From a virus: a stretch of 26,896 nt of DNA. The notes under the pieces are model-generated. The model saw only the letters and a list, made by a program, of their open reading frames with translations. It did no database searches and was not told where the DNA came from. The DNA is taken from positions 1 to 26,896 of the IMG/VR virus record IMGVR_UViG_3300021091_000351. One strand, written 5' to 3'. The translations under genes were made by a program, and so were the position numbers. This document shows, one piece after another, positions 9,008-19,688 of the stretch (its first letter is position 1; every line of letters begins with the position of its first letter).

Positions 9008-9421
9008 ATGAACAACGATATACGTACTGAGCCTAGTATCGAAAAAGGTGGTACTAAGATGTGGTATAAAAACGGTGAGCTCCACCGCGAAGATGGGCCC
9101 GCTGTTATTCATCCTGATGGTACTGAGGAGTATTATTTAAACGGCATACAGCAACTGCCCCCTCCGCCTTCTGAAATCAAAATTGATCCAGCACACTTAG
9201 CCAATGCTGGACCTGCTAAGCCTAGTATCGAAAAAGATGGTACTAAGATGTGGTATAAAAGCGGCGAACTTCAAAAAAAGAAAGTTAATGAGAGCAATAT
9301 CGTTAAATTTATTTGCTCTATTACGGAAAAAAAATATAGTGAGGCCGATAAGTATTTACAGCACGAAATCGATAATCGTATTAGATCAAAAATTTTAAAG
9401 TGTTTAAAAGACCATGAGTAA
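9008..9421 (+). CDS. repeat protein with scaffold-like C-terminus (gp67/gp68 position)
   Basis: A 137-residue protein with two copies of a PSIEK-x-GTKMWYK-x-GEL repeat (about residues 9-25 and 72-88). The first continues into HREDGPAVIHPDGTEEYYLNG, as in bacterial and phage MORN-like 'WYKNGELHREDGPA' repeats. The last 45 residues (NESNIVKFICSITEKKYSEA and onward) look like the short helical prohead-core motif found in small core proteins of T4-like phages. The position between protease and scaffold equals that of T4 gp67/gp68 in gene neighbourhood. It may be a fusion of a core peptide with a tandem-repeat domain. The stop overlaps the scaffold start by 8 bases. Confidence 0.5.
   Translation: MNNDIRTEPSIEKGGTKMWYKNGELHREDGPAVIHPDGTEEYYLNGIQQLPPPPSEIKIDPAHLANAGPAKPSIEKDGTKMWYKSGELQKKKVNESNIVKFICSITEKKYSEADKYLQHEIDNRIRSKILKCLKDHE
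9031..9081. repeat. direct repeat copy 1 (with 9220-9270)
   Basis: A 51-base segment repeated 189 bases later with 47 of 51 bases identical by my alignment. It encodes the PSIEK-x-GTKMWYK unit of the repeat protein. The high DNA identity suggests a recent in-frame duplication. Confidence 0.85.
9220..9270. repeat. direct repeat copy 2 (with 9031-9081)
   Basis: The second copy of the 51-base repeat within the same gene. It diverges from copy 1 after GEL, where HREDGPA is replaced by QKKKVNES, so the second protein repeat is truncated and runs into the scaffold-like tail. Confidence 0.85.
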
Positions 9422-12417: not shown

Positions 12418-13332
12418 TCATTGTCTTGCAGTCTTTTTAAATATAATTTTTGGATCAGTAAATATCCTGTAGATACCTTTAATGTTATTTGATCTAATAG
12501 GATTGATATCTATACCGCCGCGTCTCACGTACAAACACATTACCGTCAGTTCGATTGGATTAAATGCATCATATAACCTCTTATAGATAGTCTCACAAAT
12601 CTCCTCGTGAAAGTGACACTCATCTCTAAAGGATATTATATACTTAAGTAGAGCGGCAGGATCCAGACTGTGACTGCCCTTATAGGTAATATAGACATCG
12701 CCCCAATCCGGCTGACTGGTCACCCTGCAATTACTTTTAAGTAGTGACGAGTGATATTTTTGTTCTGTTACTGCCTGTTTATTGTACTGACTCGATCTAA
12801 GTAGCGTTGAATTTTCTGAATATATATTACACGAGACATTTTTATTGCATTCCATATATTCTAGAGTAATAAAATCGTGAATATCATCTACTATATCTGT
12901 ATATCCTGTATTAGTAGTAGAGGGAAAGATTTTACAAATAACGCTTGTCTCTAGGAGAAAAGATAAATCTTCAGCCACAAGCTTTTCGATAGAGTTATAA
13001 ATTTCCTCTCGTTCGACATTGTCGAAATATGTCATGTTGAGAGAGTTTAAATAGAGTTTGAGAGACTTAGATTCTACAATATAGGTGCTATCACAAGGAT
13101 AAATAATTTTAGCCAAACCCGTAACCGGAACCCCGTTAGCGTTCAAACAGGATATCTCGTAAGCGTTCCACAAATCGTACCCTACAAAGGGCAGATTATC
13201 CTCAGTTATGTTGAGATGTTGACGATTATTAGATCTCGCTTCCCTTACAAGTAAGCTAGGGTCATACTTGGATTTATATTTACTTGTTTGACCGAGATGT
13301 TTGATGATATTGCTATTATCTAGATATGACAT
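12418..13332 (-). CDS. queF: QueF, NADPH-dependent 7-cyano-7-deazaguanine (preQ0) reductase
   Basis: A 304-residue bimodular (E. coli-type, 282 residues) QueF that reduces preQ0 to preQ1 with NADPH. The catalytic cysteine is in LKSNCRVTSQPDWGD (C202) with D209 nearby; the substrate loop FHEEICETIY (H242, E243), the VESKSLKLYLNSLNMT block and RRGGIDINPIRSN are all present, so it should be active as a nitrile reductase. It is the last gene of the - strand operon and overlaps the pyrophosphatase gene by 17 bases. In phages QueF supplies preQ1 for 7-deazaguanine DNA modification; linkage to the DpdA-like gene supports this. The upstream preQ0 pathway is not seen here. Confidence 0.93.
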   Translation of the reverse strand: MSYLDNSNIIKHLGQTSKYKSKYDPSLLVREARSNNRQHLNITEDNLPFVGYDLWNAYEISCLNANGVPVTGLAKIIYPCDSTYIVESKSLKLYLNSLNMTYFDNVEREEIYNSIEKLVAEDLSFLLETSVICKIFPSTTNTGYTDIVDDIHDFITLEYMECNKNVSCNIYSENSTLLRSSQYNKQAVTEQKYHSSLLKSNCRVTSQPDWGDVYITYKGSHSLDPAALLKYIISFRDECHFHEEICETIYKRLYDAFNPIELTVMCLYVRRGGIDINPIRSNNIKGIYRIFTDPKIIFKKTARQ

Positions 13333-13828
13333 AAGCGCTGTGATATTTCTTAATAATATTAAGTGTTTCTTGTCTATTTGTCCAGTTGTTTATTGCAACT
13401 ATTTTACCTTCAAGGTTTTTATAGTTACGGAAAAAATCCTCAAATATATGGAGAGCTACTTTATCTAGGTCTGTGTATTCGGTATAATTATTAAAATTAA
13501 ATGCGGGTACTCCTAATATTTTATAATCATTAACACCATGATCGACCATATTCATGCAACCTAAAATCTTACATTCTACTAAGGTACCTCTCTCTATGGG
13601 TAAAGAGCTATGGATCATGATATCTAAAGGGTCGCCGTCTTGCGCAATAGTTTGAGGTATGAAACCGTAGTTAACAGGGTAGCGCATAGAGCTAATTAGA
13701 TACCTGTCGAGCTTAAAGAGATTGGTCTCAACATCATATTCATACTTCGCGCTAGTATCTTTAGGTATCTCCACAATACAATTAGTATACTCCGGAAATT
13801 TCTTACCTATGGGTGTATCAATAAGCAT
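13316..13828 (-). CDS. ppa: family I inorganic pyrophosphatase
   Basis: A 170-residue soluble inorganic pyrophosphatase (E. coli PPase has 176). The signature QDGDPLDIM (D64, D66, D69), KYEYD (28-32), YPVNYGFIP (50-58) and the C-terminal DKVALHIFEDFFRNY block are all present. It hydrolyses PPi and draws nucleotide-polymerising or activating reactions forward. Start and stop overlap its neighbours (11 and 17 bases), so it belongs to the modification operon. A phage-encoded PPase is uncommon; it might remove PPi released in DNA synthesis or in a nucleotide-activation step. The link to DNA modification is inferred from position only. Confidence 0.92.
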   Translation of the reverse strand: MLIDTPIGKKFPEYTNCIVEIPKDTSAKYEYDVETNLFKLDRYLISSMRYPVNYGFIPQTIAQDGDPLDIMIHSSLPIERGTLVECKILGCMNMVDHGVNDYKILGVPAFNFNNYTEYTDLDKVALHIFEDFFRNYKNLEGKIVAINNWTNRQETLNIIKKYHSAYVISR

Positions 13829-14381
13829 TTTTAAGTACTTCTTTAATCGTTTCTATTCTATCTTTTACGTTGCCTTTGAGTCTTACTATCAAGGGCCTAT
13901 GTATGTTGATAGTTGATAACAGTTTAAGTTCTGTTTCAAATAAATTTATAATACCATCTCTAAACTGTTTGTCTGTGCTTCGCACACCATCATCGACCAA
14001 AGGTATATTAGGGTCTGTATAAAAAATTAAATCATAACTAAACAACCCCCCTTGCAGATATGTTTGCGCTGAAAAATCGTAGATTTGTTTTGATACTTTA
14101 CCTGCATCAAAAAAATATCGCGTATATATGTATCCATCTAAAGAGCATCTATCTAAAACAGCGTTATTCATTTTCATATTTTTTATATGATCAGCTGTAA
14201 TAAGAATCTGAGTATAATCATAATTATCACTATCATTATTGATAGGCACGTTGTTTTCTCTTTTTATACGCCTGGTAACTTCTTCAACAAAAGAATACCC
14301 CGTTAATTGGGGTAACTTTTTACACTCTTCAAGTAAAGTAGATTTGCCGCTCGATTGAGCTCCCGAAAAAGCGATTAGCAT
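13818..14381 (-). CDS. P-loop NTPase/kinase, AAA_28 / NadR-like
   Basis: A 187-residue P-loop protein with Walker A GAQSSGKST (7-15), the DRCSLDGYIYTRYFF block (about residues 76-90) and YDLIFYTDPNIP (about 115-126), the pattern of the AAA_28/NadR nicotinamide-riboside-kinase-like group. Such proteins phosphorylate nucleosides or related small molecules. In this operon, between pyrophosphatase and the Nmad1-like gene, it could phosphorylate a (deoxy)nucleoside or nucleotide, possibly recycling modified bases or NAD precursors. The substrate cannot be told from sequence. It overlaps the PPase gene by 11 bases and lies 8 bases after the gene before it. Confidence 0.75.
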   Translation of the reverse strand: MLIAFSGAQSSGKSTLLEECKKLPQLTGYSFVEEVTRRIKRENNVPINNDSDNYDYTQILITADHIKNMKMNNAVLDRCSLDGYIYTRYFFDAGKVSKQIYDFSAQTYLQGGLFSYDLIFYTDPNIPLVDDGVRSTDKQFRDGIINLFETELKLLSTINIHRPLIVRLKGNVKDRIETIKEVLKNAY

Positions 14382-14389
14382 AATTTATA

Positions 14390-14692
14390 TTATTTACCCC
14401 ACTTATTTCTATCAACTAAAATTGCTATTTTTGCTAGTAAGGCAATATCTTTAAATGCATCTTCGATAGGTTCGTTAGCAGCTTCGGTTACGCCTTTTTT
14501 AATTACAAGATTGATAAGTCTTTGCACCTTATCATTTATTCTAAAGATAAGAGCTGACTTAGCTACTCGTTGACCTTCCAGTGTGCTGAGATCTTGACCT
14601 ACTGTTACATTACCGCTACCATAATCATGCTGTTTTTTAAGAAAAAGTTTGTATTCTTCTTCTAAAGTATCTTTTAACCCTTTACAGGTCAT
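14390..14692 (-). CDS. DUF1599 / nucleotide modification associated domain 1 (Nmad1)
   Basis: About 100 residues from the ATG at 14692. That start is preferred over the ATG at 14755 because it gives an ATGA overlap with the formyltransferase stop, and because the recognisable domain begins right there (MTCKGLKDTLEEEYKLFLKK). The blocks KKQHDYGSGNVTVG, RINDKVQRLINLV and EPIEDAFKDIALLAKIAI fit DUF1599/Nmad1, a helical family found beside phage base-modification genes. Its exact role is unknown. The longer reading would add 21 residues overlapping the upstream gene by 67 bases. Confidence 0.72.
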   Translation of the reverse strand: MTCKGLKDTLEEEYKLFLKKQHDYGSGNVTVGQDLSTLEGQRVAKSALIFRINDKVQRLINLVIKKGVTEAANEPIEDAFKDIALLAKIAILVDRNKWGK

Positions 14693-15258
14693 AGGATACA
14701 ATTGCTCAATTTCGTAGTAGTTAGGTTCAGTTTTTGTTTCAGGAATATTACCCATAAATTGATTGAGACGTTGTGTAGTTTATTAATAACTGCGCAGGTG
14801 TCGAGATTTTCAATCGATACCTCTTTTGAAGCGAGTATCTGGCCTTCATCTACTCCCTCTGTTACTTCATGTATTACTGATCCAGAGGTAGGTAGTTTAA
14901 GGTTTACGGCCTTTGCTTGGGGGTCTTTACCTTTAAGCTCGGGGTATTTAGTTATAAGACCTGGGTGCCCGTTATATATTGTATATCTTTTACATATACT
15001 CGGCGGTATGATGCGTAACCACCCGTTGAGAGTAATTATTTTATTGTCTGGGTCACCTAGAATATTATTATATACGCTTTCGTTCAAAGGTGAAGGTGTG
15101 AATATTAATTGATCCTTTTTTATTTTACTGTTAATTTTTGATATATTTGTTTGATTGGTAATAAGTTTATCTGGGTATATATCCAGCTGGCGCGAAATCT
15201 CAACAATTTCTGAACCAGATTGTGAAAATAGCGCGTACCACCTCATATTAGCGACCAA
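14689..15258 (-). CDS. dpdN: formyltransferase, candidate dPreQ1 formyltransferase DpdN
   Basis: A 189-residue protein with the formyl-tetrahydrofolate formyltransferase active site: N96-G-H98 in YNGHPGLITKYPELKG and D137 in EGVDEGQILASKEV, matching the Asn-His-Asp triad of GART and Met-tRNA formyltransferase. It is shorter and more divergent than either housekeeping enzyme. It lies between a DpdA-like transglycosylase and Nmad1 in an operon with QueF. Published work on phage 7-deazaguanines named DpdN as the predicted formyltransferase converting dPreQ1 to formylated dPreQ1, and this context fits that closely. The start at 15258 overlaps the upstream gene by 11 bases; an in-frame ATG at 15246 is also possible. 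Confidence 0.78.
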   Translation of the reverse strand: MVANMRWYALFSQSGSEIVEISRQLDIYPDKLITNQTNISKINSKIKKDQLIFTPSPLNESVYNNILGDPDNKIITLNGWLRIIPPSICKRYTIYNGHPGLITKYPELKGKDPQAKAVNLKLPTSGSVIHEVTEGVDEGQILASKEVSIENLDTCAVINKLHNVSINLWVIFLKQKLNLTTTKLSNCIL

Positions 15259-16057
15259 TAATGCGTTTGAATTGTGAAGTATTATAATAAGCTAGTTCAA
15301 TTGTATCGTCGTCAACCTCAGCATTTATTAAATCAGCGAGGAGGGTAGATGGTTTGATTTTAAGGCCAAAGTCACCATTATACTGCAATCCTTGCAGTGC
15401 TGCCACTATTGGATTAGATGTATCGCATGATCTTATGTTGTAGATATTGTTATTGACGTAGTATTTAAATTCTTTTGCTAAGGAGCAACCCAGAAGATGG
15501 TGTGGTTTATCCCAGTTCCAGATACCTTCATCAATTAACTGCTGAATAAATCTTTGTCTGCCCGAACACCAAAGCTGTAGATTACTATCACCAACTCCTG
15601 TAATAGTGTAATAGGAGTAATCAAAACTAATGGCAATATAATCTGCATTAGTCGACATAAATTTATAGCAGACTACTAAATCATTCCACGTCTTGCCCTG
15701 GACAACGCCTATTTTTTCAGGTCCTGTTATCTTGTCGTTAGCATAAATAGTATTAAACTCATTCCACTTCTTGATTGTTCCATGTGTATCCTCTAAAACA
15801 TCGGGTATAATATAATAGTTGGGTTTAATTTTTTTTACCCACTCAGCATATTTTGTAGAGTCAAATGCCTCTTTCAATTCAAATATAGAGTTGTCGAGCA
15901 ATACCTCTGCTCCTGTACGAGCGTTAACGTTTAAAAACCACTCTCTATATTGTTCATTCGTTTCCATAAGATGAACCAGGCAGTATTGATAATCATTGTA
16001 ATCAAGAGAACGGCAGAGAAGATTTACAGGAGATTCATGACTAACAAGTAGTTTCAT
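15248..16057 (-). CDS. dpdA: DpdA-like DNA guanine transglycosylase (TGT superfamily)
   Basis: A 269-residue TIM-barrel protein of the tRNA-guanine transglycosylase superfamily, much shorter than tRNA TGT (about 370 residues) and lacking its zinc site. Likely base-binding and catalytic blocks are VLLDNSIFEL (D55), IIPDVLED (D86), VVQGKTWND (Q120, G121) and AISFDYSYY (D146); which Asp is the nucleophile is not certain. DpdA enzymes exchange guanine in DNA for a 7-deazaguanine base after replication. The subfamily (DpdA1-4) cannot be assigned by eye. It is the first gene of the operon with a sigma70-like promoter immediately upstream. Role in DNA modification rather than tRNA is inferred from the operon and the small size. 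Confidence 0.75.
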   Translation of the reverse strand: MKLLVSHESPVNLLCRSLDYNDYQYCLVHLMETNEQYREWFLNVNARTGAEVLLDNSIFELKEAFDSTKYAEWVKKIKPNYYIIPDVLEDTHGTIKKWNEFNTIYANDKITGPEKIGVVQGKTWNDLVVCYKFMSTNADYIAISFDYSYYTITGVGDSNLQLWCSGRQRFIQQLIDEGIWNWDKPHHLLGCSLAKEFKYYVNNNIYNIRSCDTSNPIVAALQGLQYNGDFGLKIKPSTLLADLINAEVDDDTIELAYYNTSQFKRIIGR

Positions 16058-16063
16058 ATTATT

Positions 16064-16092
16064 AATATATGCTTAAATAATAATAAAGTCAA
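16064..16092 (-). promoter_or_regulatory. sigma70-type promoter of the 7-deazaguanine operon
   Basis: On the - strand, TTGACT (16092-16087), a 17-base spacer and TATATT (16069-16064). The -10 box ends six bases before the DpdA ATG, so the transcript would start at or beside the start codon, making it leaderless or nearly so. Near-consensus boxes with ideal spacing suggest early, host-polymerase transcription. Confidence 0.6.
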
Positions 16093-19602: not shown

Positions 19603-19688
19603 TGGTGGGTATGGTAGAATTCGAATCTACTCACCACGAGGGAGCCGATTTACAGTCGGCTGTAACTCTCCAGCGTTACCGCATACCC
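19603..19688 (-). tRNA. tRNA-Tyr (GUA anticodon)
   Basis: Read on the - strand: acceptor GGGTATG pairs with CATACCC, then discriminator A and an encoded CCA at 19605-19603. The D-arm has a GTAAC/GTTAC stem, the anticodon arm GCCGA/TCGGC encloses the loop CTGTAAA with anticodon GTA, a long (about 13-base) variable region is present as in bacterial tRNA-Tyr, and the T-arm is GTAGA-TTCGAAT-TCTAC. All stems pair fully, so the gene is intact. It decodes UAU and UAC. tRNA-Tyr is one of the four tRNAs normally carrying queuosine at the wobble base. Confidence 0.95.

Follow-up and report, generated by a model that had tools for sequence, protein, structure and literature searches.

At what stage do phages in which 7-deazaguanine fully replaces deoxyguanosine (dG) bring the modified base into their DNA, before replication or after it? 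The question is raised by a six-gene operon in the IMG/VR record IMGVR_UViG_3300021091_000351, the whole of which, 26,896 bases, was analysed here (the window). All six open reading frames (ORFs) that an earlier note on this DNA had described as a minus-strand operon at 12418-16057 are present, reading from 16057 to 12418, and neighbouring genes overlap or lie no more than 8 nucleotides apart. In order, they encode a DpdA3-like guanine transglycosylase, a formyltransferase, an Nmad1-like protein, a P-loop kinase-like protein, an inorganic pyrophosphatase and QueF. Profile searches put beyond doubt the identification of QueF, the pyrophosphatase, the AAA_28/thymidylate-kinase-like P-loop protein and the formyltransferase. 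The P-loop kinase is the core partner of DpdA, with QueF and the formyltransferase as side-chain modules. Judged from its genes, the operon is a genuine DpdA3-type 7-deazaguanine DNA-modification system, and the kinase suggests where in the pathway the base exchange may take place.

The first gene (15248..16057, minus strand, 269 residues) was described in the earlier note as a DpdA-like transglycosylase. No Pfam family above cut-off and no NCBIfam family matches its product, sequence-profile searches by themselves fall short of TGT (a weak 0.012), and by hhalign the DpdA1 of phage 9g is not recognisably similar to it. Foldseek, run on a structure model built from three sequences (a moderate pLDDT of 63, with the C-terminal 57 residues unreliable), returned TGT for all of the best 50 PDB matches, with a top E-value of 1.5e-5 and a probability of 1.00. 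The motifs of E. coli TGT and of the window protein are colinear (DSGGFQ/DNSIFE, IIQG/VVQG, LMGV/LLGC and FDCVMP/CDTSNP), and D55, D86, Q120 and D212 are fully or almost fully conserved across 26 sequences. Since the sequence-only link to TGT or to the 9g DpdA failed, it is the fold and the motif order that carry the assignment, and these place the protein within the TGT superfamily, as had been claimed. The CxCxxC zinc motif of TGT was not found in the window protein, whereas E. coli TGT has the Cys cluster; at the level of sequence, this separates the predicted DpdA from the tRNA enzyme. Its homologs in Campylobacter Firehammervirus CP220 and in the isolate Flavobacterium phage vB_FspM_immuto_2-6A (NC_055915, hereafter immuto) are 43-45% identical to it (CP220 43%).

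QueF, the preQ0 to preQ1 nitrile reductase (12418..13332, minus strand, 304 residues), is clear by profile (PF14819 4e-34, PF14489 3e-22), although its TIGR03138 score of 266 bits is under the equivalog cut-off of 293. C202 and D209, said to be intact, are indeed present and are common to the immuto QueF, to which it is 45% identical. At locus L007 (18320-19645), QueF lies about 5.3 kb away from the kinase and is longer (about 441 residues) than in other operons. As the earlier note stated, no preQ0-making genes are found in the window; this is uninformative alone, because the window, although the whole record, is a fragment. Among the contigs of 18 longer relatives, QueC occurs in 9 and QueD in 11, and immuto encodes FolE, QueD, QueE and QueC (QueC away from the locus). 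These genes support 7-deazaguanine DNA modification as the purpose of the operon, and suggest that the phage of the window probably encodes its preQ0 supply elsewhere in its genome.

The formyltransferase gene (14689..15258, minus strand) would encode 189 residues from a TTG start or 185 from an ATG that aligns better with relatives and lies 1 nucleotide past the DpdA stop. It matches PF00551 (2e-10), and its nearest solved fold is GART/PurN (8e-17). The Asn-His-Asp triad reported earlier is present and invariant in 21 relatives, as N96, H98 and D137 in TTG-start numbering, or N92, H94 and D133 from the ATG. An identity as housekeeping PurN or Fmt was rejected, as the scores are far under the curated cut-offs (PurN 47 against 150 bits, Fmt 20 against 201), so that the profiles did not place the protein in the Met-tRNA or GART families. 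Its gene directly follows that of DpdA, the two overlapping in 71 of 111 operons, and a counterpart 51-53% identical holds the same operon position in immuto. The libraries searched hold no profile for DpdN; context and homology make the protein a candidate DpdN, predicted to act on preQ1 or dPreQ1.

The kinase gene (13818..14381, minus strand, 187 residues) encodes a P-loop deoxynucleotide or deoxynucleoside kinase-like protein, matched by AAA_28 in Pfam (1e-15) and by the thymidylate kinase family phrog_2107 in PHROG (1e-27). Its DRC-xx-D-xxx-Y motif lines up with the DRF motif of thymidylate kinase 2pbr. The P-loop and the DR motif with its spacing to the downstream tyrosine are present, and G7, K13, R78, D82 and Y86 are invariant in 26 sequences. 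The kinase had been taken for an addition to the pathway, a view that the survey overturned: it is the most constant partner, and the gene that varies is the formyltransferase. IMG/VR was scanned with profiles of DpdA, the formyltransferase, Nmad1 and the kinase, which yielded 157 non-redundant operon clusters, defined by a kinase plus DpdA or QueF, so that the kinase is required by construction; 149 of these contain DpdA, 151 QueF, 118 the formyltransferase, 32 Nmad1 and 2 the pyrophosphatase. Among 110 non-redundant DpdA loci, a count unbiased by the kinase, 103 have it. A kinase-only search returned 80 loci, all 80 with QueF or DpdA alongside (QueF 78, DpdA 73), and the loci that lack DpdA all have an adjacent QueF; this result concerns the window-like kinase clade only, a broader kinase alignment being too variable for scanning. 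When DpdA is clustered at 40-60% identity, the kinase association holds in 97% of 237 redundant loci inside the DpdA3 clade, outside which the hidden Markov model of the kinase misses other kinase families. Of 38 operons without the formyltransferase, 31 have overlapping DpdA and kinase genes and 37 have the two at most 20 nucleotides apart; kinase and QueF genes overlap in 91 of 152.

Searches of the whole genomes of CP220 and of Campylobacter phage CC_R7 found no QueF and no formyltransferase, and both keep DpdA followed by the kinase; the kinase therefore follows the exchange enzyme and not the side-chain chemistry. It was not found in the genomes of 9g and Dp-1, and gave a weak match in Vibrio nt-1, in a negative control of few genomes; the viral contigs yielded only seven DpdA1 relatives of the 9g type. 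At BLAST sensitivity, the only kinase relatives in 50,697 phage records are in Campylobacter phages, immuto and one Streptomyces group, the last with no recognised deazaguanine genes nearby. Two loci (L084 and L046) depart from the usual operon, one having two DpdA ORFs and the other two kinase ORFs.

preQ1 is the product of QueF, TGT-fold enzymes replace guanine with 7-deazaguanines, and formyltransferases of the GART/PurN-type fold N-formylate amines with formyl-tetrahydrofolate. From the gene content, folds, motifs, gene order and reciprocal association described above, we infer a product, a kinase substrate and a level of action as follows. QueF would reduce preQ0, supplied by the host or by genes outside the fragment, to preQ1; the short TGT-fold DpdA would swap guanine for the 7-deazaguanine base; and the formyltransferase would N-formylate the aminomethyl group, giving 7-(formylamino)methyl-7-deazaguanine as the DNA base. 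Formyl-dPreQ1 is thus the best-predicted product in the phage of the window, with dPreQ1 expected in phages without the formyltransferase. We propose that guanine is exchanged before replication, in the pool of free nucleotides, with dGMP or a deoxynucleoside as the substrate. The kinase would then rephosphorylate the modified nucleotide for the polymerase, and the pyrophosphatase would remove pyrophosphate, pulling polymerisation or dGTP breakdown. To this whole model, that is DpdA3 replacement, a formyl-dPreQ1 product and free-pool exchange with the kinase, we assign a probability of about 0.48. The general proposal that DpdA3 phages replace guanine before replication on free deoxyguanylate, as a guanine counterpart of the Z-genome pathway, is made a little more tentatively still.

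It is the dedicated kinase that indicates exchange in the free pool, and the same reading draws on pyrophosphohydrolases and polymerases nearby, on the Firehammervirus DNA and on published precedents. Firehammervirus DNA is reported to contain dADG with complete dG replacement (PMC10273834), which exchange on deoxyguanylate would explain. An older proposal for Campylobacter phages, from before a transglycosylase had been identified in them, was a route through modified dGTP (PMC6884629). MazZ converts dGTP to dGMP (PMC8342488), and DmtZ exchanges the base on dAMP to give dZMP (PMC12884076).

The neighbours of short DpdA genes in other phages are of the kinds that such a route would use. In 38 immuto-like loci, and at L003 (9273-9797), a PRA-PH protein of the MazG superfamily with an EExxE...ExxD pattern lies just upstream of DpdA on the same strand; in immuto it is annotated merely as 'hydrolase'. 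DNA polymerase A is near DpdA in the immuto-like loci. A MazG-superfamily pyrophosphohydrolase is upstream of DpdA at L339. Cellulophaga phage phi13:1 has the order QueD-QueE-FolE-MazG-ORF-P-loop protein-DpdA-ORF-DNA polymerase III alpha, and in CC_R7 (PQ092953, L329, 3306-8408) QueC, DpdA, kinase and DNA polymerase are directly adjacent, the DpdA being 28% identical to that of the window. A P-loop protein directly precedes DpdA in Chryseobacterium phage MA9V-3 (AAA_18) and in Weizmannia phage Youna2, where DNA polymerase A directly follows it. P-loop proteins outside the main clade belong to different families, and their presence beside short DpdA genes looks like repeated recruitment, in few such lineages. 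Directly upstream of DpdA, CP220 (L004, 6868-7899) encodes a fusion of an HD domain and a P-loop domain (AAA_33), which could be a nucleotide phosphohydrolase/kinase in the same pathway. A second kinase copy lies elsewhere in Firehammer phages, beside dUTPase in IBB_35, as it does in CC_R7 (L164).

The same chemistry would be obtained if DpdA acted on finished DNA, post-replicatively, as is accepted for DpdA1 and DpdA2, the kinase and pyrophosphatase serving to supply deoxynucleoside triphosphates (dNTPs) or to turn the guanine set free, and nucleotides, back into GTP for further preQ0. This we regard as a substantial possibility, if one short of an even chance. Nucleotide kinases are common in phages, a phosphoribosyltransferase in 39 immuto-like loci could salvage guanine, and the modification of phage CAjan needs DpdA, with a TGT-like base-exchange mechanism proposed (PMC6884629). 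A mere supply kinase is hard to reconcile with its exclusivity to DpdA, reciprocal at 80 of 80 loci and not found in the 9g and Dp-1 genomes, or with the second copy that Firehammer phages already own; and most window-like loci, while retaining the kinase, have no phosphoribosyltransferase. The operon might instead make plain dPreQ1 or another preQ1 derivative, with the formyltransferase acting elsewhere, for example on glycinamide ribonucleotide for purine supply. PurN/GART is after all the best profile match of the formyltransferase, and the 39 of 157 operons without it keep DpdA, the kinase and/or QueF; its low PurN and Fmt scores, its place directly after DpdA and the near relative in the same place in immuto make this unlikely. 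It is very improbable that the genes serve to increase the queuosine of host tRNA instead of modifying phage DNA. QueF does make the bacterial queuosine precursor, and Hutinet et al. bring up such a role for phages without DpdA (PMC6884629), but here a DpdA-type exchange enzyme lacking the Cys cluster of E. coli TGT is present, and the Campylobacter relatives are modified in their DNA (PMC6884629, PMC10273834).

Several points nevertheless weigh against exchange on free nucleotides. The kinase matches NadR ribosylnicotinamide kinase and a deoxynucleoside kinase about as well as it does thymidylate kinase. No recognised kinase adjoins DpdA in Rhizobium phage RHph_I1_18 or at L341. The MazG family PF03819 has no match in the contigs of the 18 relatives or in immuto (19 records), and the Nmad1-like protein resembles MazG neither in fold nor by the PRA-PH profile. 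Moreover, polynucleotides are the known substrates of TGT-fold enzymes, the other DpdA subfamilies are regarded as acting on DNA, and those who described DpdA3 (Cui et al. 2023) reportedly inferred post-replicative insertion. In RHph_I1_18 (L325, 3962-5230), the DpdA-like protein is fused to DUF3310, and in place of a kinase a DCD/dUTPase-like gene follows it.

The remaining two genes are accessory. The Nmad1/DUF1599-like all-helical protein (14390..14755, minus strand, 121 residues) matches phrog_1485 (8e-10) and reaches 14 bits with PF07659, under the Pfam cut-off of 25 bits. Its model (pLDDT 84.7) has no significant PDB fold match, and there is no similarity to the PRA-PH profile; a role as a MazG-like dGTP pyrophosphohydrolase was dropped as unsupported. 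Such proteins are common in phages without a DpdA operon (L165, loci L189-L242), so that Nmad1 is not deazaguanine-specific; in Microcystis phage Mel-JY01 one lies beside replication genes and S-adenosylmethionine synthase. The inorganic pyrophosphatase (13316..13828, minus strand, 170 residues; PF00719 5e-49), whose gene overlaps those of the kinase and QueF on either side, occurs in only 2 of the 157 operons, that of the window and L166; where the two can be aligned, their DNA is about 65-75% identical. The pyrophosphatase was therefore rejected as a general part of the pathway, and pyrophosphate removal by the window enzyme, given two cases, is a consistent reading and no more.

Profile searches find a T4-like myovirus gene set around the operon (portal, head protease, gp23-type major head protein, sheath stabiliser, baseplate hub and wedge), and the operon sits in reverse orientation between the region of the major head gene and the gene for the baseplate hub. 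Just upstream of DpdA, at 16064..16092 on the minus strand, a promoter-like TTGACT-17-TATATT matches the consensus at 10 of 12 positions; such matches are overall not above chance, and this one is no evidence of function. A tRNA-Tyr(gta) gene, with the queuosine-type anticodon GUA, lies just downstream of the region (19603-19688, minus strand), and a small protein with repeated GTKMWYKNGELHREDGPA-type motifs is encoded at 9008-9421 (plus strand), adjoining the head genes.

The near-obligate kinase partner brings the choice between pre- and post-replicative entry within reach of a test with two purified proteins. Should exchange in the pool prove true, mononucleotides would be substrates of a TGT-fold enzyme, and E. 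coli could be given a complete guanine-replacement pathway, as has been done for Z-DNA. Should it prove false, the survey still defines the system genetically, as a DpdA-kinase core with QueF and formyltransferase side-chain modules.

It remains to compare the operon with known systems. Formyl-dPreQ1 and the name DpdN, for a predicted formyltransferase, reportedly come from Cui et al. 2023; that pathway likewise combines a formyltransferase with DpdA and QueF, and the window adds Nmad1 and the pyrophosphatase. In immuto, the genes shared with the window have the same order, DpdA-(small ORF)-formyltransferase-'thymidylate kinase'-QueF, with 45-53% identity for DpdA, the formyltransferase and QueF and 34% for the kinase. 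The immuto locus differs in having FolE, QueD and QueE adjacent, the PRA-PH protein upstream and DNA polymerase A nearby, and in lacking Nmad1 and the pyrophosphatase. The arrangement of QueF, DpdA and formyltransferase is thus already visible in a deposited genome and is not new. The earlier note had suspected an undescribed version of the pathway: this does not hold for DpdA-formyltransferase-kinase-QueF, annotated in immuto, and of the genes named as additions only Nmad1 and above all the pyrophosphatase are extras. CP220 resembles the window in its short DpdA followed by the same kinase family, and differs in its lack of QueF and the formyltransferase and in its second, distant kinase copy. 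The Z-genome pathway (PurZ/MazZ/DatZ/DpoZ; DmtZ) offers a parallel to the proposed model, with dNTP converted to the monophosphate, base change at that level, rephosphorylation and a dedicated polymerase (PMC8342488, PMC12884076). It replaces adenine, whereas the window system would replace guanine, possibly at the same level; the two share no recognised homologous key enzyme. Relative to known DpdA3-type operons, what is new here is the six-gene form and the observation that the kinase belongs to the core.

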